A DNA stretch of 64,000 bases, taken from IMG/VR virus record IMGVR_UViG_3300025162_000040, positions 1 to 64,000 of that record; one strand, 5' to 3'. The position numbers and the translations under genes are program-made. The stretch comes from a virus. Positions 2,924 to 30,037 of this stretch are shown one piece after another. Each line of letters opens with the position of its first letter. Position 1 is the stretch's first letter. Below the pieces are notes generated by a model. That model worked only from the letters and a program-made list of their open reading frames with translations, did not search any database and was not told the DNA's origin.

Positions 2924-3501
2924 TTGAGCAGCTCCAATATTTTTAGGTAGTTCTTATAAGACAGCCCATTATCCGGATCTACCTTGACAAAGTATGGAAG
3001 CTGTCCATCTAACATGTCGCTGTCGTCGTCTACAATAGCGTATTGCTCCACTTCTGGGTGGTCCCGAAGCCACATAGCGATCTCCTCGCCACGCGCTGAG
3101 GACAGCTTTTCAGGCGTAGAATCCATCATCGGAAGATGCATTGCTACTGCCATGTTCACGTGCCCTGTCGAGCGCCGCCATGTAGAGGATAGGATTATCC
3201 TGGCCCCAGTTTTCTCGCATGCAACTCTAATAAGATCTATAGCAACGTGGTCAAACATCTTTAAACCCTGCTTATCTACTTCCCAGGGGTATCCGTCGTA
3301 CGCTATACACGTTCTACGCGAATTGATTACACCATCTACATCCAGGAAAATGACTTTAGCTAACTGATGTTTCCAGTTGTCGCAGACAAACCCAGCGGAA
3401 ATCTCTGTAGTTGCTCCTTCCGGCTGTGCAGAGCAGTTTCCACATGTTCCACCGTCAGCGTAGAAGCAATTTTGACATGTTTTACTTTCGGTATTACTCA
3501 T
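2920..3501 (-). CDS. HAD-superfamily hydrolase with N-terminal Cys-rich segment
   Basis: Residues 1-45 hold CQNCFYADGGTCGNC and a later Cys (FVCDNW), a probable zinc site. From residue 50 the HAD motifs appear: FLDVDGVIN (nucleophile Asp), ILSSTWR (motif II Ser/Thr) and DDDSDML (motif IV acids). The DxDGVxN plus SSTWR style fits the HAD phosphatase domain found with RNA-repair proteins, and an RtcB ligase lies in the same run, so a polynucleotide end-phosphatase role is plausible but inferred. Confidence 0.8.
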   Translation of the reverse strand: MSNTESKTCQNCFYADGGTCGNCSAQPEGATTEISAGFVCDNWKHQLAKVIFLDVDGVINSRRTCIAYDGYPWEVDKQGLKMFDHVAIDLIRVACEKTGARIILSSTWRRSTGHVNMAVAMHLPMMDSTPEKLSSARGEEIAMWLRDHPEVEQYAIVDDDSDMLDGQLPYFVKVDPDNGLSYKNYLKILELLK

Positions 3502-3764
3502 TTCTTGTATCTCCCGGTCCGCCCGTAGTTGTAGAAATGCCTGCCACTTTTAACCCTCTCCAAAACATTCTGGAACCCATCTTCGAAGTGCTCCGAATAC
3601 GGGTTAGTTGCAAAGCCAGCCACAGTTTCTTTGCCACACCCAGCACATTTATACAGGTCCGCTGAGTAGATCTTGTAGGGCCCGAAGTCAGCCATTTCGA
3701 TCACAAAGATCCCGTTTTGCTCGGTACTAAGCTCAAAATTACATTCGGCACACACCATCTTCAT
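3498..3764 (-). CDS. Zinc-ribbon protein, 88 aa
   Basis: CAECNF at residues 5-10 and CAGCGKE near 40 form a four-Cys ribbon. GGAG precedes the ATG, and ATGA overlaps join both neighbours. Function is unknown. Confidence 0.7.
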   Translation of the reverse strand: MKMVCAECNFELSTEQNGIFVIEMADFGPYKIYSADLYKCAGCGKETVAGFATNPYSEHFEDGFQNVLERVKSGRHFYNYGRTGRYKK

Positions 3765-4264
3765 TTTTTGCTCCTTTTTAAGTTCATCATTCTTCCGTCA
3801 GTTTCCATATGGCATCTTCGGCAAAGCCATTCCCAGTCAGTAAGATCTCTTTTATATTTTCCACTTATGTTTGCGACATCACGAGGTTTTACTTTTTGAC
3901 AGCATATACACCTACTAGGTTTTTTTAACTTACGTCTCACCCAGGCGTGTAGTGAGGCATAACCAACATCATCACCCCTCCACTGTGGATTTAATTCATT
4001 GAGCTTGGATACAGATACTTTATGATTTCGATCCAAGTAGTTTTTAAAGTCTGCTCCACAGCAAATCTTTGAGCAATAGATAGACTTCTTACATCCAGTA
4101 AACCTTTTGTGGCAAACCTTGCATACCTTTTTGAATTTGTACGAGTATTTCTTTGAGCACTCTCTGCACTGCCCACGTACTCCAAGTTTTCCGTGCTGCT
4201 GTTTGCAGAAACAGCTAAGTTCCAAAATTTTTTTACAACAACAACATTCTTTAGTCTGTGTCAT
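3761..4264 (-). CDS. HNH endonuclease, probable homing enzyme
   Basis: The 167-aa protein has paired-Cys segments in its N-terminal half (CCCCKK, CRECSK, CKVCHKRF, YCSKIC), then WRGDDVGYASLHAWVRRKL and CICCQK, and ends WEWLCRRCHMETDG, the usual C-terminal half of a phage HNH domain. Such genes are free-standing mobile endonucleases. It sits between the RtcB gene and a zinc-ribbon gene, overlapping the latter by ATGA. Its lower GC content than neighbours fits recent arrival. Confidence 0.85.
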   Translation of the reverse strand: MTQTKECCCCKKILELSCFCKQQHGKLGVRGQCRECSKKYSYKFKKVCKVCHKRFTGCKKSIYCSKICCGADFKNYLDRNHKVSVSKLNELNPQWRGDDVGYASLHAWVRRKLKKPSRCICCQKVKPRDVANISGKYKRDLTDWEWLCRRCHMETDGRMMNLKRSKK

Positions 4265-4265
4265 A

Positions 4266-6425
4266 TCAGCCTTTAATGACCCCTAAAGGCTGCAGTTCAA
4301 CCACGATCTCGACGAGATCTTCCTGGTTCTTCATTACCTGATCAATCGGCTTGTACGCGCCCGCAGCTTCATCAAGGTCCTTTGCTGTCCGGATACCGTG
4401 AATGATGCCCTGATCGTCCAGACGCCTCTGCTCTTCCTCAAGGTTTAGGGTGTTCTCAGCCTTGGTACGGCTCATAGTCCTGCCGGCGCCGTGTGAGCAG
4501 GACATAAAGCTCTCTTGATTACCTTTACCCTTGACGATGTAGCTCTTGGTGCCCTGAGATCCAGGGATGATGCCGATAGTGTTTTCTCTGGCTAAAGTCG
4601 CTCCCTTCCTGTGAACCATAACGTTCTTTCCAAAATGGCTTTCGACAGTGGCGTAGTTGTGAGCAATGTTTATCATTCCGCTCATGTCGATGCTGCCACC
4701 AAGAGTGCTGTTAAACACATTTACAATGCGCTCCATCATTAGCTTGCGGTTAGCCAGCGCAAACTCGACACAGTATTGCATTTCAAGTAGGTACTTCTGA
4801 CCTTCAGTGCTGTCTATAGGAAGAAATGCCAAGTCAGACTCCTTTGGAACTGACGAAAACCACTTTGCAGTCATTTCCTTAGCGAGGTCATTGTAGTGCT
4901 TAGCAACCTTAAAGCCAATGTTCCTACTTCCCGAGTGAATCATGATCCAAATAAACCCAGTCTGATCCTTCTGTATTTCGATAAAATGGTTCCCACCGCC
5001 GAGCGTCCCAATCTGCTTCAAGGCAGACTGGTACTCCTGCTCAACAATACTTGAGTCGACTAGGAAAGCCTGGCGAATTGATCGCGTTTCAGGCATAAGC
5101 TGCTCGTTCTGTTTTTCACCGTGGTGACTAAACCCTACCGGTACAACCGTTCTGATGCCGCCGTGATGCTCCTTCGAGCCTCCAAAGAGCTTCTTAATGA
5201 CCTCTTTGGTGATCCACTCAGTTGTCCACGGAGTCTTTAGAGCGCACATACCACAGTTTCCTGTTGCAAACACGTTCCCGTTTCTTCTTGCGATAAAAAA
5301 TCCAGACGGGACTGTAAAGCAATACTTAAACCCGTCTTCACTTTTAGCATACGACATTTTAGTTTTTGGGTACCCGTTCATTCCTATTTTAGTGCTAGTT
5401 GATCTAAATACTCGATAGTCTAATTCACTATCTAGCCCGCTTCTCCCAATATCTGTCCGAAGAACACTCCTAAATCCACACGAGGAGAAGACGTATTGAA
5501 CAAAATCAGCGTCTTCCCGATTCCGAGTAAAGAATACTTGATCTTTCTCGTTACCGTCCCAATGTAGCACTTCATCATTTACTACAAGAAGCTGCTCAAA
5601 ACTAGCATTCCAAAATTGCTTTAGACCTTTCTCAAGAATAGGAGGAGAAAATCGTATATGAGTTACACCATCATACTTATTGACACTTTGTATATATTTT
5701 ATATTAGCATCATTCAGTAGCTTTATTGCACGCTTAACTTTCCTATCTTTTTTGACCCTGAGTAGCCCCCGAGTTCTGTCTATGTAGCCGTCGGCACAGA
5801 ACATTACCATTACTCTTAGCTCGGCGTCTGTAAGACTAACACGTGTTATTAATTCCGGAGTAAATGTTGTTACAAATCTATGCCTGTATCCTGTTTTTGT
5901 GGACAAGTGCTTTTGAAGTATTTCAGAAGCCAAGTCTACTTGATACTTAGAGAAGTTGGTCTTCCTATCGTTAAGGAATACTAAACATCTGTGATCTTCA
6001 CTAACCATTTGGTCAATGCCATATTTTGTTTTAAAATGTATAAATTTTTCGCACGGCACCTTTATGTAGTTCTCAGGCGTAACAAGTCTAGCTGCCCCAG
6101 TATCTGGACAGTACTCCATTACTTTTTCATCCTTGTACTCCGAAATTTTCTTCCATCCAAAACCAGTAAGAAACTCTGTATCTTTGTCAACACAACCGAT
6201 ATCCACACCAACCGCGTTAGGAATAACCACACGCTCCGCGGCCAACACGCCACCGATTGGCATGCCATATCCAGAGTGGCAGTCCGGCATGATCGCGATG
6301 TGGTGGAACGCGAATGGGAGCTTCGAGAGGTTGCTGATCTGTGACAGAGCAGACTCCTCGATCGATCCCTCCGCAGACCATATGAATGCCGGGACTTTCA
6401 TTTCTTCATTTTTGAACTTGTACAT
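4266..6425 (-). CDS. rtcB: RtcB-type RNA ligase precursor containing an intein
   Basis: RtcB seals RNA 2',3'-cyclic phosphate (or 3'-phosphate) ends to 5'-OH ends with GTP and Mn2+. The 719-aa precursor splits into extein 1-77, intein 78-390 and extein 391-719, giving a mature ligase of about 406 aa, normal for the family. Exteins show MPDCHSGYGMPIGG, GVDIG joined to CGMCA, GGGNHFIE, MIHSGSRNIG, VHRKGATLA and SCSHGAGRTMSR, the last holding the His that is guanylylated. With the Rnl2-like ligase at 29,090 and the HAD at 2,920 it suggests RNA repair, for example of tRNAs cut by host anticodon nucleases. Confidence 0.95.
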   Translation of the reverse strand: MYKFKNEEMKVPAFIWSAEGSIEESALSQISNLSKLPFAFHHIAIMPDCHSGYGMPIGGVLAAERVVIPNAVGVDIGCVDKDTEFLTGFGWKKISEYKDEKVMEYCPDTGAARLVTPENYIKVPCEKFIHFKTKYGIDQMVSEDHRCLVFLNDRKTNFSKYQVDLASEILQKHLSTKTGYRHRFVTTFTPELITRVSLTDAELRVMVMFCADGYIDRTRGLLRVKKDRKVKRAIKLLNDANIKYIQSVNKYDGVTHIRFSPPILEKGLKQFWNASFEQLLVVNDEVLHWDGNEKDQVFFTRNREDADFVQYVFSSCGFRSVLRTDIGRSGLDSELDYRVFRSTSTKIGMNGYPKTKMSYAKSEDGFKYCFTVPSGFFIARRNGNVFATGNCGMCALKTPWTTEWITKEVIKKLFGGSKEHHGGIRTVVPVGFSHHGEKQNEQLMPETRSIRQAFLVDSSIVEQEYQSALKQIGTLGGGNHFIEIQKDQTGFIWIMIHSGSRNIGFKVAKHYNDLAKEMTAKWFSSVPKESDLAFLPIDSTEGQKYLLEMQYCVEFALANRKLMMERIVNVFNSTLGGSIDMSGMINIAHNYATVESHFGKNVMVHRKGATLARENTIGIIPGSQGTKSYIVKGKGNQESFMSCSHGAGRTMSRTKAENTLNLEEEQRRLDDQGIIHGIRTAKDLDEAAGAYKPIDQVMKNQEDLVEIVVELQPLGVIKG
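5256..6194 (-). mobile_element. Intein with LAGLIDADG-type endonuclease inside RtcB
   Basis: The 313-residue insertion begins with Cys (CVDKDTEFLTGFGWKKI, a Hint block A start) and ends NVFATGN before Cys391 of the extein. Hint block B is seen at SEDHRCLVF. The middle has a dodecapeptide-type endonuclease motif, LRVMVMFCADGYI. The penultimate residue is Gly rather than the usual His. The insertion lies exactly before the metal-binding Cys of the RtcB motif DIGCGM, so the ligase is inactive until spliced. Codon use is more AT-rich than the exteins. Confidence 0.93.
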
Positions 6426-21286: not shown

Positions 21287-21708
21287 GCCAAGTCGTTGAT
21301 CCATATTGCGATGTAAATAGGTGCATCGAACGCCTCCGTAACGAGTTCAAAAAGTACGGTAACCTTGTTATCGGGTTCGACTTCGATGAAACGATCTTTG
21401 ACTACCACCACCAGGGACACTGCTACACCGCTGTTATGGAGCTGCTCCGCCGATGCAGTAAACTTGGGCTCACAATGTGCTTGTATACTAACGAGTCTAA
21501 TCCTGACAAGCTTAAGTTTAAGCAGGATTACTGTAGGTACTCGCTTGGGTTTATGCCAAGCTTCACCAATGAGAGTCCGCTGCTTAAAGACGGCGGAAAG
21601 CCATTTTTTAGCACCCTGCTTGACGACCGCGCCGGTCTCGGGCAGGCGTATATCGTACTGGAGGCTGTAGTGAACGAAATTGAAAAGGAAAGGATACAAG
21701 AAAAATGA
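21283..21708 (+). CDS. HAD-superfamily hydrolase
   Basis: The 141-aa product has VIGFDFDETIFD (nucleophile Asp), MCLYTNES (motif II) and TLLDDRAGL (motif IV), a short HAD phosphatase of the type phages and bacteria carry beside nucleotide genes. It sits between the Prs-like and NAMPT-like genes with ATGA overlaps, so a substrate from ribose/NAD metabolism is likely but inferred. Confidence 0.85.
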   Translation: MSQVVDPYCDVNRCIERLRNEFKKYGNLVIGFDFDETIFDYHHQGHCYTAVMELLRRCSKLGLTMCLYTNESNPDKLKFKQDYCRYSLGFMPSFTNESPLLKDGGKPFFSTLLDDRAGLGQAYIVLEAVVNEIEKERIQEK

Positions 21709-23171
21709 TTTCACCCATTGTACTCAAGGATTTCTACAAAACAGACCATAGAAGGCAGTACCCGACAGGAACTGAGATCGTGTACTCCAATCTAACGCCT
21801 CGCGGGAGCCGTGTGCCTGGGGTCGACCACGTGGTCGTGTTTGGAATCCAGTATTTTGTCAAAGAGTACTTGATTAAGCGGTGGAATGAGGACTTTTTCA
21901 ACCAACCAAAAGACGAGGTTGTTCGCAAGTACAAACGGCGCCTTGATAATGCTCTTGGAAAAGACTCTGTTCCCATTGAGCACGTTGGGGAGCTTCATGA
22001 TCTTGGATACCTTCCTATTCTGCTCAAAGCTCTTCCAGAAGGAACTCTGTGTCCGATGCGTATTCCGATCCTAACGATCCGGAACACCCACCCGAAGTTT
22101 TTTTGGCTAACAAACTTCATGGAAACAGTCATGTGTAATATCGTGTGGGGCCCAACCACTTCAGCATCTACAGCCTACGCCTACAGAAAGATGCTGGATG
22201 GGTACGCGGCAAGGACATCTGACATTCCGGAGTTTGTCAACTGGCAGGGCCATGACTTCTCGATGCGAGGAATATTTGGGATTGAGGGAGCCCTAATGTC
22301 TGCTGCTGGCCATCTGCTTAGCTTTACGGGCACGGACACGGTCCCAGCGATCGACTTCCTTGAAGAATATTACGGCGCTGACTCTGACAAGGAGATGGTA
22401 GGTGGCAGTGTTCCGGCAACGGAGCACTCGGTCATGTGCCTCGGTGGTCTTCTGTCAGAAGAAGAGACGTTTCGCAGGCTCCTTACTGAGATCTATCCTA
22501 CTGGCATTGTCTCTGTTGTGTCTGACACATGGGACTACTGGAATGTGATCACGAAGACCCTTCCGGCTCTAAAAGATGTAATTATGAACCGGAACGGTCG
22601 GCTTGTGGTTCGCCCCGACAGTGGTGATCCTGTGAAGATCATCTGTGGCGACGCTGTGAGTGATGATCCAGCAGCCAAAGCCGGCACTGTTGAGCTTCTG
22701 TGGAACACCTTTGGCGGCTACACAAACGCTAAAGGGTTCAAGCAACTCGACAAGCACATTGGGGTAATCTATGGCGACAGCATCACACTTGAGCGGTGCG
22801 AAGCCATTTGTGAAGGTCTTGCACGAAAGGGGTTTGCGTCCACGAACATGGTGTTTGGCATCGGAAGCTACACTTACCAGTTTGTGACACGTGACACCTT
22901 CGGGTTTGCCATGAAAGCTACCTGGGGCATCATCAACGGAAAGCCTGTGACTATCTACAAGGACCCGAAAACCGATAGCGGGATCAAGAAGTCCGCCCGC
23001 GGGCTCTTGCAGGTTAATCAAGATGCTACAACCGGAGAGCTCACGATGATTGAAGATGTCACGCCAGAACAAGAGGATCTTGGGCTGCTTACAACCGTAT
23101 TTGAAGATGGCAAAATCGTAACCGAGTACACACTTGCAGACATTCGCAAGCGTCTCGGGTGCATAAAGTAG
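21705..23171 (+). CDS. nadV: Nicotinamide phosphoribosyltransferase family enzyme (NadV; candidate Namat)
   Basis: The 488-aa product is full length for NAMPT/NadV, which joins nicotinamide to PRPP to give NMN. Visible motifs are YSNLTPRGSR, FVNWQGHDFSMRG, GGSVPATEHSVMCLGG (catalytic His) and RPDSGDPVKII (phosphate/ribose binding). With the Prs-family gene of the same operon it forms the gene pair described for phage NAD+ reconstitution (NARP1), where the second enzyme acts on ADP-ribose pyrophosphate. Either pathway restores NAD+ depleted by host defence. Confidence 0.95.
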   Translation: MISPIVLKDFYKTDHRRQYPTGTEIVYSNLTPRGSRVPGVDHVVVFGIQYFVKEYLIKRWNEDFFNQPKDEVVRKYKRRLDNALGKDSVPIEHVGELHDLGYLPILLKALPEGTLCPMRIPILTIRNTHPKFFWLTNFMETVMCNIVWGPTTSASTAYAYRKMLDGYAARTSDIPEFVNWQGHDFSMRGIFGIEGALMSAAGHLLSFTGTDTVPAIDFLEEYYGADSDKEMVGGSVPATEHSVMCLGGLLSEEETFRRLLTEIYPTGIVSVVSDTWDYWNVITKTLPALKDVIMNRNGRLVVRPDSGDPVKIICGDAVSDDPAAKAGTVELLWNTFGGYTNAKGFKQLDKHIGVIYGDSITLERCEAICEGLARKGFASTNMVFGIGSYTYQFVTRDTFGFAMKATWGIINGKPVTIYKDPKTDSGIKKSARGLLQVNQDATTGELTMIEDVTPEQEDLGLLTTVFEDGKIVTEYTLADIRKRLGCIK

Positions 23172-27290: not shown

Positions 27291-27338
27291 TATTTACTCG
27301 CACAGCATAACCAACAACTAACATAAGGAAAAAGAACC

Positions 27339-27626
27339 ATGGTAAAGCACACGAAGAACCACCCACTCGGTCTAACGGCTAAGCAAATCGCGGACCTAGC
27401 GGGAATAAGTGTCTCTGAAATCAACTTGGCGGAGAGCTCCGCTGTGTACCCACACAGAGCAAACGGGACGCGATATGTGATCGCCCACAAGCATCACTTT
27501 CGCGACAAAGTTATCGACAAGATCGACTTAGACATCAAAAAAGCTAAGGAGATCCTCAGGCACCTTAAAAAGGAAAAAGCTCAGCGGCAGCAGGCTCGTC
27601 AAGAAGCGATTACACCAAAAGCATAA
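27339..27626 (+). CDS. Small HTH-containing protein, 95 aa
   Basis: LTAKQIADLAGISVSEINLA at residues 11-30 is a helix-turn-helix, followed by a basic coiled C-terminus (KKAKEILRHLKKEKAQRQQA). AAGGAAAA precedes the ATG. It may regulate transcription or bind the adjacent RNA/DNA; this is inference. Confidence 0.7.
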   Translation: MVKHTKNHPLGLTAKQIADLAGISVSEINLAESSAVYPHRANGTRYVIAHKHHFRDKVIDKIDLDIKKAKEILRHLKKEKAQRQQARQEAITPKA

Positions 27627-28371
27627 ATAACAAAAGTTGCGTAGGAGGCAAAGGTGGGTTGTGTCAGCATCAGGGCGTGCCAGAGTAATACGTTGGGTGT
27701 TGCGGCTTGGCGTATGAGGGTAGGCACAGGAGTCGGAAATGGTCAGCGGTGATCGCAAACTAGCCCGCGAGAGTATCCGTAGCCCCAATACCCGGTTAGC
27801 ACGAATAAAACCCCCGGGAAACTGAACCCTCATGTGGTGCTGTGGGTAACAATTTGACAAAGAGTATTCCGGGACGCCGGCGGGTTGAAGCTCGAGGTTA
27901 CAGGCGCTATTCGCTCATACAGGAATTTAAAGCGAAAAACCTACGTCGAGATACTCTTTAATTTGCGTAGTCGAATAGCGGGAAACCGTGCTATTAGGGG
28001 ATAAACTCCCTAAAGTGATTGGGCTGTAGGCTTAGAAGTAGCCATCAGCTAAGAAACGTCGCCCGGCCGTTACTCTCAGAGGGGCTAAGTAAAAACGTAC
28101 CAATCTATACGGCTACAAACTAATGTTGGTGGTGTTTTTAAACTATGCTTGGGGAAAGACCGCAACCAGTGAACCAAGACCACCAATCGTTTGGAGCTGT
28201 GGCGTGTTACACGCACAGATAGTGGGGCGAGAGGCCGGTTGTTCAGAATTGACCGGCAGTGGGATGGCCAAAAACCCCGCCTCAGATGAGGAGAAATACC
28301 ACTTGAGTGGACGGACATGGTGGAAGAACCCGCCGCCCCGTTCGCCGGCTCCAACTAAATAGGAGAAGTAA
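27627..28371 (+). ncRNA. Large structured non-coding RNA candidate
   Basis: 745 bases without a plausible gene contain many perfect helices: ATGAGGGT/ACCCTCAT (27714, 27826), CACAG/CTGTG (27725, 27840), AAAGAGTAT/ATACTCTTT (27859, 27951), CTCGA/TCGAG (27891, 27946), CGCTATTCG/CGAATAGCG (27905, 27972, a pseudoknot), TTAGGG/CCCTAA (27994, 28008), TTGGTGGT/ACCACCAA (28126, 28179), GCGTG/CACGC (28202, 28210), GCCGGT/ACCGGC (28234, 28252). Size and phage setting resemble GOLLD or ROOL RNAs, but I cannot match either. Confidence 0.7.
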
Positions 28372-28635
28372 ATGACCCCCCGAAAAACGTGTGTGCATTG
28401 CCAAGAGTACCCCTCTTGCAGAAATACCTCGGAAGAACCCTACTACGGAATACTGTCCTGCGGATGTACCACATGTGACTGCCACGCCCCTTCCACTGAG
28501 TTCACCTGCACCGAATGCGGAAAAAAGTTTACCATATGGAAACTTCTTTTCAAGCACCTAGACGAACACCGTAAACAACACGAAGAAGACATGTACAACA
28601 AGTCGGAGGACCCACGGTACACGTGGGGCATTTAA
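28372..28635 (+). CDS. Cys-rich protein with a classical C2H2 zinc finger
   Basis: The 87-aa product has an N-terminal Cys cluster (CVHCQEYPSC, LSCGCTTCDC) and then CTECGKKFTIWKLLFKHLDE ending H, a textbook C-x2-C-x12-H-x3-H finger. Such fingers are rare in phage proteins and usually bind DNA or RNA. AGGAG precedes the ATG, directly after the large RNA region. Confidence 0.78.
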   Translation: MTPRKTCVHCQEYPSCRNTSEEPYYGILSCGCTTCDCHAPSTEFTCTECGKKFTIWKLLFKHLDEHRKQHEEDMYNKSEDPRYTWGI

Positions 28636-28636
28636 C

Positions 28637-28933
28637 ATGGGCCAATGGGGTGATGATTGGGAAGATGATAACTTTGAGGACTGGGGAGAATACAGCGGCG
28701 GGGACGCATATAGCAAAGTAACGTTTATGTCACTTGAGTTTCATTGTTTAAAGCACACAACAAAGAAGGCCTGGCTTGTGAGCTTCTACAGCGCTAAGCC
28801 AATGAAAACAGTAACGGTATGGCTTCCAAAGAGCCAATGCATCCTAAGTCCTGAAACATTTATTGTAAAAGTTCCGGCGTGGCTGGCGGATCAGAACAAC
28901 CTAACAAAGTATGTAAAAAAGCAACCACTATGA
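28637..28933 (+). CDS. Conserved phage protein of unknown function, 98 aa
   Basis: An acidic start (WGDDWEDDNFEDWGEY) is followed by KAWLVSFYSAKPMKTVTVWL and PKSQC, then VPAWLADQNNL. The PxSQ and WLAxxxxL pattern occurs in many small phage proteins without known role. Confidence 0.7.
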   Translation: MGQWGDDWEDDNFEDWGEYSGGDAYSKVTFMSLEFHCLKHTTKKAWLVSFYSAKPMKTVTVWLPKSQCILSPETFIVKVPAWLADQNNLTKYVKKQPL

Positions 28934-29112
28934 GTAATACTCAGCCAAAGATAATGCTGCAGAAGTGCCTGATCTGTAACTACACATGCGCGTACGAGGT
29001 ACTGTCCAAAGAAGACGAGGATACTATCCGTGCAAGCTGCCTTTCCTGTGGGCATCAGGGAATGTTTACACTACTAGAGGAGGACCACGATGGGCTATCT
29101 CGGGATAGATAA
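28930..29112 (+). CDS. Zinc-ribbon protein, 60 aa
   Basis: CLICNYTCAYEV and CLSCGHQG make a four-Cys ribbon. The ATG overlaps the upstream TGA, and the 3' end overlaps the RNA ligase gene by 23 bases. Confidence 0.7.
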   Translation: MSNTQPKIMLQKCLICNYTCAYEVLSKEDEDTIRASCLSCGHQGMFTLLEEDHDGLSRDR

Positions 29113-30037
29113 TCTTTACAAGAACCAGGAAATTCTTATGTTCAAGCGCTGCTACGCTATGGAGAAGATCCACGGAACATCAGCACATATTAGCCTTGAC
29201 CGGTCCAGGCAGCTTGTGTTTGGACCTATCATTGGTGTTAACGAGGACGCGAGGCGGTACACTGAGGCTGAATGGCAAGAACGCTGGCCTGACAAGATTG
29301 AACTGCATTTTTTCTCCGGCGGTGAAAAGCACGAAAACTTTATAAAACTGTTTAACCACCAAGACCTAGAAAACAAGTTTCGAGCCATGAACATCAAGGA
29401 GCTCATTGTTTTTGGGGAAGCTTATGGTGGCAAGCAGCAGGGCATGTCTGGCACATACGGCAAAGAGCTTAAGTTTATAGCCTTCGACGTCAAGCTTGGT
29501 GGAAACTGGCTTGCTGTGCCTAACGCGGAGTCTGTGTGTGCTCAGCTCGGCATTGAGTTTGTTCATTATGAAGAGGTTGCCACAGATCTTGATGTTTTAA
29601 ATGCACTTTCCGAGGCAGACTCTGTCCAGGCTGTGCGGAATGGTGTTGGGCCCGGGCATATCCGTGAAGGTGTGGTTTTACGGACTCTTGTTGAGCTCCG
29701 GAAGAACAATGGTGAGCGGATAATAGCCAAGCACAAGAATGAGAAGTTCCAGGAGACTGCCAAGAAAAGAGAGGTGTCTAAAGAGCGCCTTGAAGTACTC
29801 ACAGAGGCACAGGCTATCGCGGACGAGTGGGTCACGCGTCAACGCCTCATGCATGTGCTTGATAGGTTTCCGGATGCTACTATTACAGAAACAGGGGCTA
29901 TTATAAAAGCAATGGTTGAGGACGTGCTTAAAGAGAGTGTCGGAGAAATTGTTTTTAGTAAAGAAGCCCAAACTGCTATTGGAAAAAAGACCGCACTTAT
30001 ATTCAAAGAGTACATAAAACAAAGCCTGTATGAATAG
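29090..30037 (+). CDS. RNA ligase, Rnl2-like
   Basis: The 315-aa product carries the nucleotidyltransferase motifs MEKIHGTSAHI (Lys adenylated), FGEAYGG (III), REGVVLRT (IV) and IAKHKN (V). It should seal 3'-OH/5'-phosphate RNA ends using ATP. AGGAGG precedes the ATG. With RtcB it gives the phage both ligase chemistries. The C-terminal 110 residues are helical, as in Rnl2-type enzymes. Confidence 0.9.
   Translation: MGYLGIDNLYKNQEILMFKRCYAMEKIHGTSAHISLDRSRQLVFGPIIGVNEDARRYTEAEWQERWPDKIELHFFSGGEKHENFIKLFNHQDLENKFRAMNIKELIVFGEAYGGKQQGMSGTYGKELKFIAFDVKLGGNWLAVPNAESVCAQLGIEFVHYEEVATDLDVLNALSEADSVQAVRNGVGPGHIREGVVLRTLVELRKNNGERIIAKHKNEKFQETAKKREVSKERLEVLTEAQAIADEWVTRQRLMHVLDRFPDATITETGAIIKAMVEDVLKESVGEIVFSKEAQTAIGKKTALIFKEYIKQSLYE

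Follow-up and report, generated by a model that had tools for sequence, protein, structure and literature searches.

The question raised by this locus is what a phage keeps in 745 nucleotides that seem to encode no protein. The window, a 64-kb stretch of viral DNA, contains such a region at positions 27627-28371 (+ strand), which a first-pass annotation had read as a gene-free gap occupied by a candidate giant structured phage RNA. The gap was borne out: between the open reading frame (ORF) that ends at 27626 and the one that starts at 28372 there is no credible gene, and the region is presumed to be mostly noncoding RNA, with the module described below located on its + strand by a family model. 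The ORFs of at least 60 aa that lie inside the region or reach into it have strongly negative hexamer coding scores (-34 for 28123-28362 on the + strand; -48 and -61 for 27528-27860 and 28085-28354 on the - strand), those inside it falling far below the phage's large genes, and none had a PHROGs match at E<=0.01. The hexamer score is weak by itself: the small downstream neighbour, which is accepted as a gene, is also negative (-37).

That neighbour (28372-28635, + strand) encodes 87 aa with a weak C2H2 zinc-finger match under the curated cut-off; the upstream neighbour (27339-27626, + strand) encodes 95 aa and has no family, and an RNA ligase gene (29090-30037, + strand; PF09414 and phrog_548) lies 0.7 kb downstream of the region. 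RNA ligases of two kinds are encoded by the phage, one with an RtcB domain (4266-6425, - strand) and one of the RNA_ligase family (29090-30037, + strand), as are a nicotinamide phosphoribosyltransferase (21705-23171, + strand) and a GroEL-like chaperonin (57821-59449, + strand). No close relatives of the phage were found in INPHARED. When its proteins were queried against viral contigs, relatives of the RNA ligase were at most 54% identical, the SPFH protein had one relative and the product of 40001-41953 had no match.

The reading of the region as RNA had rested on its long helices, with stress on a pseudoknot. The helices named are exact: two perfect 9-bp helices (27859-27867/27951-27959 and 27905-27913/27972-27980) cross within 27859-27980 on the + strand. 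They lie outside the module described below and have no relatives for covariation, so that the pseudoknot has no comparative support. The excess of long perfect helices over dinucleotide shuffles is modest. There are three of at least 9 bp against a mean of 0.48 (two of 60 shuffles reach three), six of at least 8 bp against 2.5 (three of 60 reach six) and 15 of at least 7 bp against 11.1 (ten of 60 reach 15). Taken as a whole, the region folds with ordinary energy (z -1.04, with three of 20 shuffles as good; z -0.56 for the other strand). A lack of excess stability over shuffled sequence had been proposed as grounds for refuting the RNA reading, and over its full length the region does lack it; whole-region stability was dropped as evidence for an RNA. 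The 5' 385 nt are unremarkable (z +1.10; 86 of 100 shuffles as good) and the 3' 182 nt (28190-28371) are somewhat stable (z -2.57; three of 200 shuffles as good). The latter contain a domain at 28191-28354 (+ strand) closed by TTGGAGC/GCTCCAA, and directly after it comes the GGAG, resembling a ribosome-binding site, that belongs to the next gene. The proposal of a structured phage noncoding RNA is supported by the homology and covariation of one module, the long helices not being its basis, and the decisive evidence for the predicted RNA is homology.

In a sensitive search of 72,556 plasmid records the one notable result was a 35-nt match at 91% identity (32/35; E 5e-3) to plasmid 1 of Aromatoleum aromaticum EbN1; the same search against phages gave nothing useful. 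The matched plasmid site is unannotated and lies in about 1.5 kb without annotated genes, in a plasmid collection that lists no RNA genes. We found that positions 28019-28053 of the window correspond to helix 43 (H43), the core of the GTPase-associated centre (GAC) of 23S rRNA, and that 30 of 36 positions are identical to E. coli 23S 1055-1090. Helix numbers, and E. coli numbering beyond this alignment, are given as we take them to apply. The hairpin itself (28024-28048, + strand; E. coli 1057-1081) scores 40.2 bits with an H43 position-specific scoring matrix (PSSM), against -4.0 for the runner-up site on either strand of the 64 kb. Its loop, UUAGAAGUA (28032-28040, + strand), corresponds to 1065-1073, with the A1067 equivalent at 28034, and the pairs at 1057-1081 and 1058-1080 are C-G and U-A. 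The H43 hairpin in this phage is certain, covarying positions included. Similarity to rRNA beyond the GAC was sought in the window and amounts to that one 36-nt alignment; no LSU model matched.

The EbN1 plasmid RNA matches stretches beside tRNA genes in the Pseudomonas phages Astolliot, pf16, UNO-G1W1 and Milchi, and the hairpin was found in more than 100 viral contigs, in cultured phages and in the gene-free stretch of the Aromatoleum plasmid. H43 patterns in a non-23S context mark 57 viral stretches (50 + 7), from which a second constant block could be read, UUUGGCGUARNAGCACACC, corresponding to the loop side of H44 in the GAC; scanned alone, this block occurs in at least 120 viral stretches. 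An H43 with at most four mismatches lies within 700 nt upstream of 114 of 124 exact H44 sites (five others are too near the sequence end and five have none). Of 1550 positions picked at random from these loci, 81 have one. In the family, H42, H43 and H44 together make up a complete GAC that stands alone, and a variable arm enters it at a constant position, between the residues that correspond to 1090 and 1091. The arm is 47-367 nt long (median 131) and its base is a covarying helix with 3.1 of 4 pairs, against 1.9 when partners are dealt anew; the closing helix in the place of H42 has a mean of 8.0 of 10 pairs, against 5.3 in the corresponding control. Across the family the sequence of both tip loops, in H43 and in H44, is almost that of rRNA. 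Counts of tRNAs, residues and arm lengths cover loci up to L183, comprising 103 unique and 83 non-redundant elements, with sub-types that have a different 1077-1090 stretch kept in; one element with short flanks was dropped from the H43 pair analysis, and L184-L217 were added for the H44-to-H43 pairing count and for the statistics on the closing helix and the arm base.

Full elements are present in the cultured phages GAP32, CBB, XbC2, Kaldavass, XacN1, 4_4572, pf16, UNO-G1W1, Milchi and Astolliot, whose records carry no RNA annotation at the position of the element. Among 19 GTDB contigs with an exact variant, 16 are true 23S (15 by a scripted 23S test, L111 as judged by eye) and three have the inserted form: one from Flintibacter muris and one from a Parcubacteria MAG, both with H44, and a third, also a MAG contig, that is nearly the EbN1 plasmid. 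Loci L037, L038 and L219 were rejected as elements, being real rRNA. The family matches no Rfam family (Rfam 15; 33 distinct loci scanned), and full-text searches of an open-access library listed no description of a phage GAC mimic. The family of free-standing 23S GAC mimics is apparently undescribed.

Several features of individual elements were seen in passing. The EbN1 plasmid RNA region has pieces outside the GAC in common with Pseudomonas phage Itty13 (L030 4313-4408; 84% over 96 nt) and with a viral contig, L063 (L030 ~4739-4844; 79% over 107 nt), and a near copy of the plasmid element holds about 1.6 kb that looks IS-like by eye within its variable arm (L113 ~3370-4990). In Astolliot and Milchi the full element is preceded, at a distance of about 340 nt, by another H43-like hairpin that is divergent and lacks H44 (L033 2073; L036 2065). 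In one sub-type (L161, L169, L146, L163, L119, L172 and L134) the 1077-1090 stretch after the H43 loop is replaced by different sequence that is hairpin-like, and H44 is canonical. In the Xanthomonas phage XacN1 (L222 524-1174) the element directly follows a gene with the annotation 2'-5' RNA ligase; in the window an RNA ligase gene follows the RNA.

Covariation was scored on 31 of 40 diverse elements with the arm trimmed. The nine left out have a shifted or variant 1077-1090 stretch; leaving them out favours the structure in H43, and the choice was made without looking at H42 or the arm. In these 31 elements the structure pairs 91.4% of cells, against 66.2% in shuffled alignments and 34-51% in slid versions, the covariation score is 0.629 against 0.149 when shuffled, and both sides have changed at 18 of 25 pairs. 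Across the family the H43 pairs 1057-1081 and 1058-1080 change together. The pair 1082-1086 is CG in 38, UA in 25 and AU in five of 83 elements; it forms a tertiary contact in crystal structures of the ribosomal GAC, and because this tertiary-contact pair covaries, the family probably keeps the three-dimensional fold of the ribosomal GAC. The equivalent of A1067 is A in 74 of 83 elements and that of A1095 in 81 of 83, and 1096 and 1097 are variable; A1067 and A1095 are exposed, ligand-contacting tip residues of the GAC. The elements share with the GAC of 23S rRNA (H42-H44, E. coli 1051-1108) the H43 sequence, both tip loops, the H42 closure and the 1082-1086 pair, but they are free-standing, lie outside rRNA genes in mobile elements, and have an arm of tens to hundreds of nucleotides between 1090 and 1091.

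How much of this architecture the window contains beyond H43 can be read from the family covariance model R1. Over both strands of the 64 kb and up to E 10, R1 gave a single match, at 28013-28111 (+ strand; 44.5 bits, E 2.5e-9), which was also its sole match in the whole 83.6-kb record; an unfiltered rescan of the region placed the second-best site at only 2.5 bits. We regard the identity of this module as GAC-like as very likely. Its alignment to R1 runs through H42, H43, a short arm, a divergent H44 and back to H42. The 5' strand of H42 is GUGAUUGG (28015-28022, + strand). After the hairpin comes CUAAGAAAC (28049-28057, + strand), which corresponds to 1082-1090 in the family alignment and in which C28049-G28053 is the 1082-1086 pair; the residues at 1087, 1089 and 1090 differ from those of the family. 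The variable arm, at the insertion site between 1090 and 1091, would occupy 28058-28084 (+ strand), and its length of about 27 nt, short for the family, depends on the assignment of H44. The probable divergent H44, CUAAGUAAAAACGUACC (28085-28101, + strand), has GUAAAA (28089-28094) in place of 1093-1098, and its basal pairs 1089-1102 and 1090-1101 are changed on both sides relative to the family. The probable 3' strand of H42, CCAAUC (28100-28105, + strand), makes six consecutive pairs with the 5' strand in the R1 alignment.

The exact H44 block is absent from the window, and the loop of the candidate is off consensus, with a PSSM score below that of the best site listed (-7.8), compared with 20.8-36.8 for family members. 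Members whose true H44 is far away still reach 35-48 bits under R1 from H43 and a forced closure, and a site as good as the candidate is expected by chance 0.06-0.17 times on the joint score; for these reasons H44 in the window is graded only probable. An alternative partner for H42 at 28183-28192 makes ten of ten pairs but has no H44-like sequence before it; best by pairing alone, it was ranked second after the R1 alignment and the joint score. A compact 23S continuation after the hairpin is absent from the window, and thermodynamic folding of 28010-28195 alone does not favour the H42 closure. A short arm, a divergent H44 and an H42 closure are modelled as probable features of this phage. Neither the upstream 386 nt nor the sequence that follows the hairpin is significantly similar to any element locus compared; flanks matching nothing make up about 640 of the 745 nt, and the whole 745 nt may be one RNA. 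The element is absent from all 28 records reached via the phage's RNA ligase or SPFH protein and is therefore not a core trait of its kin.

The overall best explanation, which we hold to be moderately probable, is that the region encodes a phage noncoding RNA that holds a divergent member of the GAC-mimic family and acts as a decoy. The leaders of ribosomal-protein mRNAs (L1, L10 and others) imitate the protein-binding site in rRNA and act in cis on ribosomal-protein genes; like them, the element imitates an rRNA site, but the elements sit among tRNAs or unrelated phage genes. A decoy RNA would fold like the ribosomal GAC, and its free-standing copy would bind what normally docks there: L11 with RelA or translational GTPases, or the tRNA elbow. 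A stable extra copy could tie up L11, RelA or GTPases, or attach to tRNA elbows, and translation, the stringent response or tRNA handling would be shifted in the infected cell, with the variable arm anchoring or tuning the decoy. For the decoy class of mechanism as such, we see a case that comes close to being probable and stops a little short of it; L11/RelA as its target would be a rather unlikely particular. Ribosomal H43/H44 and L11 bind thiostrepton, which blocks the functions of EF-Tu and EF-G, and L11 mediates the binding of RelA, according to passages of PMC9998046. A comparable logic applies to OLE RNA, which a passage of PMC12286853 describes as thought to sequester the ribosomal protein RpsU; the GAC-like element differs from it in having no Rfam match, and its target would be another protein.

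The GAC fold could instead be a mere building block, whose H43 and H44 loops dock so as to keep the variable arm in position and whose function is unrelated to ribosome ligands. The range of the arm in length and sequence, as if it did specific work, and the fact that the fold-forming pairs are the best conserved part are what such an RNA would display, but A1067 and A1095 are kept more strictly than a mere scaffold needs, and we think the idea unlikely. In two viral contigs a GAC element is accompanied by a copy of the 23S L1-stalk domain (E. coli 2109-2182) that likewise stands alone, at L182 1720-1794 (+ strand; 76% over 75 nt) and L213 388-458 (minus strand; 79% over 71 nt), with no other 23S similarity around either copy; mimicry of ribosome parts is thus favoured over a neutral scaffold. 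Searches for further rRNA pieces near elements gave weak matches only, and sarcin-ricin-like strings were unconvincing.

A less likely possibility is a role in storing, protecting or processing phage tRNAs, with the element binding their elbows in the manner of the ribosomal stalks. A tRNA lies within 60 nt of 40 of the 103 elements and a same-strand tRNA within 1 kb of 62, and the L1 stalk, the ribosome's other mobile stalk, which is copied in two element contigs, is a known elbow binder, as are RNase P and T-boxes (parts of PMC4810234). Against this, the available sequence shows no same-strand tRNA within 1 kb of the other 41 elements, the sole tRNA of the window is 5.4 kb from the element, and in passages of the elbow review (PMC4810234) no mention of the GAC was found. 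A link to amber suppression was dropped, a CTA-anticodon tRNA being near only two of the 103 elements. Among element-bearing viral contigs, one encodes RNase P RNA among some 40 tRNAs (L057 1687-2014) and another a tmRNA beside tRNAs (L055 8163-8535, minus strand); in a third locus (L078 3300-3513) the tRNA directly before the element looks, by eye only, interrupted by intron-like sequence.

We know of no defence nuclease that cuts the GAC site, which counts against the improbable reading that the element serves as a decoy, drawing a bacterial defence enzyme or toxin away from the ribosomal GAC as its point of attack. In its favour, phage tRNA islands are thought to counter tRNA-cutting defences, as a passage of PMC10264068 has it. 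Slightly less probable still is a functionless remnant of a host 23S rRNA gene acquired by recombination: the hairpin is nearly rRNA sequence, but the match to rRNA is limited to the GAC, and insertion at one site together with covariation over great divergence fits selection on a folded RNA and not decay, an argument that covers the family and not the single copy in the window.

Membership of GOLLD, ROOL or OLE, which the first-pass annotation had offered, is extremely unlikely: comparable size and a phage location speak for it, and GOLLD and ROOL are, like the element, large structured phage RNAs often near tRNA islands (parts of PMC12286853), but the module of the element is ribosomal and the identity is rejected at Rfam sensitivity. 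At the gathering cut-off, Rfam 15 finds only a tRNA in the window, outside the 745-nt region, and no group I or group II intron model matches there. Up to E 10, the sole matches in 27300-28700 were two implausible ones below threshold, neither of them to GOLLD, ROOL or OLE, and 33 other distinct element loci hold only rRNA, tRNA, tmRNA and RNase P at the cut-offs. The other half of that proposal, a new class, is supported, the class being free-standing RNAs that mimic the GTPase-associated centre of 23S rRNA.

Extended to the family, the decoy reading would have many phage lineages carrying free-standing replicas of the GAC, and some also of the L1 stalk, which would serve as decoy parts of the ribosome; produced for the most part from tRNA islands, these would divert L11/RelA, translation factors, L1 or tRNAs during infection, with the window holding a divergent version in a larger RNA. 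We advance this tentatively, as possible rather than probable. If it is true, viruses would encode their own copies of a functional centre of the ribosome, which would be viral RNAs of a new type. Such copies would point to phage RNAs aimed at the stringent response, translation factors or tRNA elbows, and some of the RNA in phage tRNA islands that lacks an explanation would gain a testable role; the complete copies in cultured phages make it testable now. The hairpin resembles the docking site of translation factors on the ribosome, and many other phages have fuller versions of it, often among tRNA genes; from this it seems that decoy parts of the ribosome may be in use by viruses.
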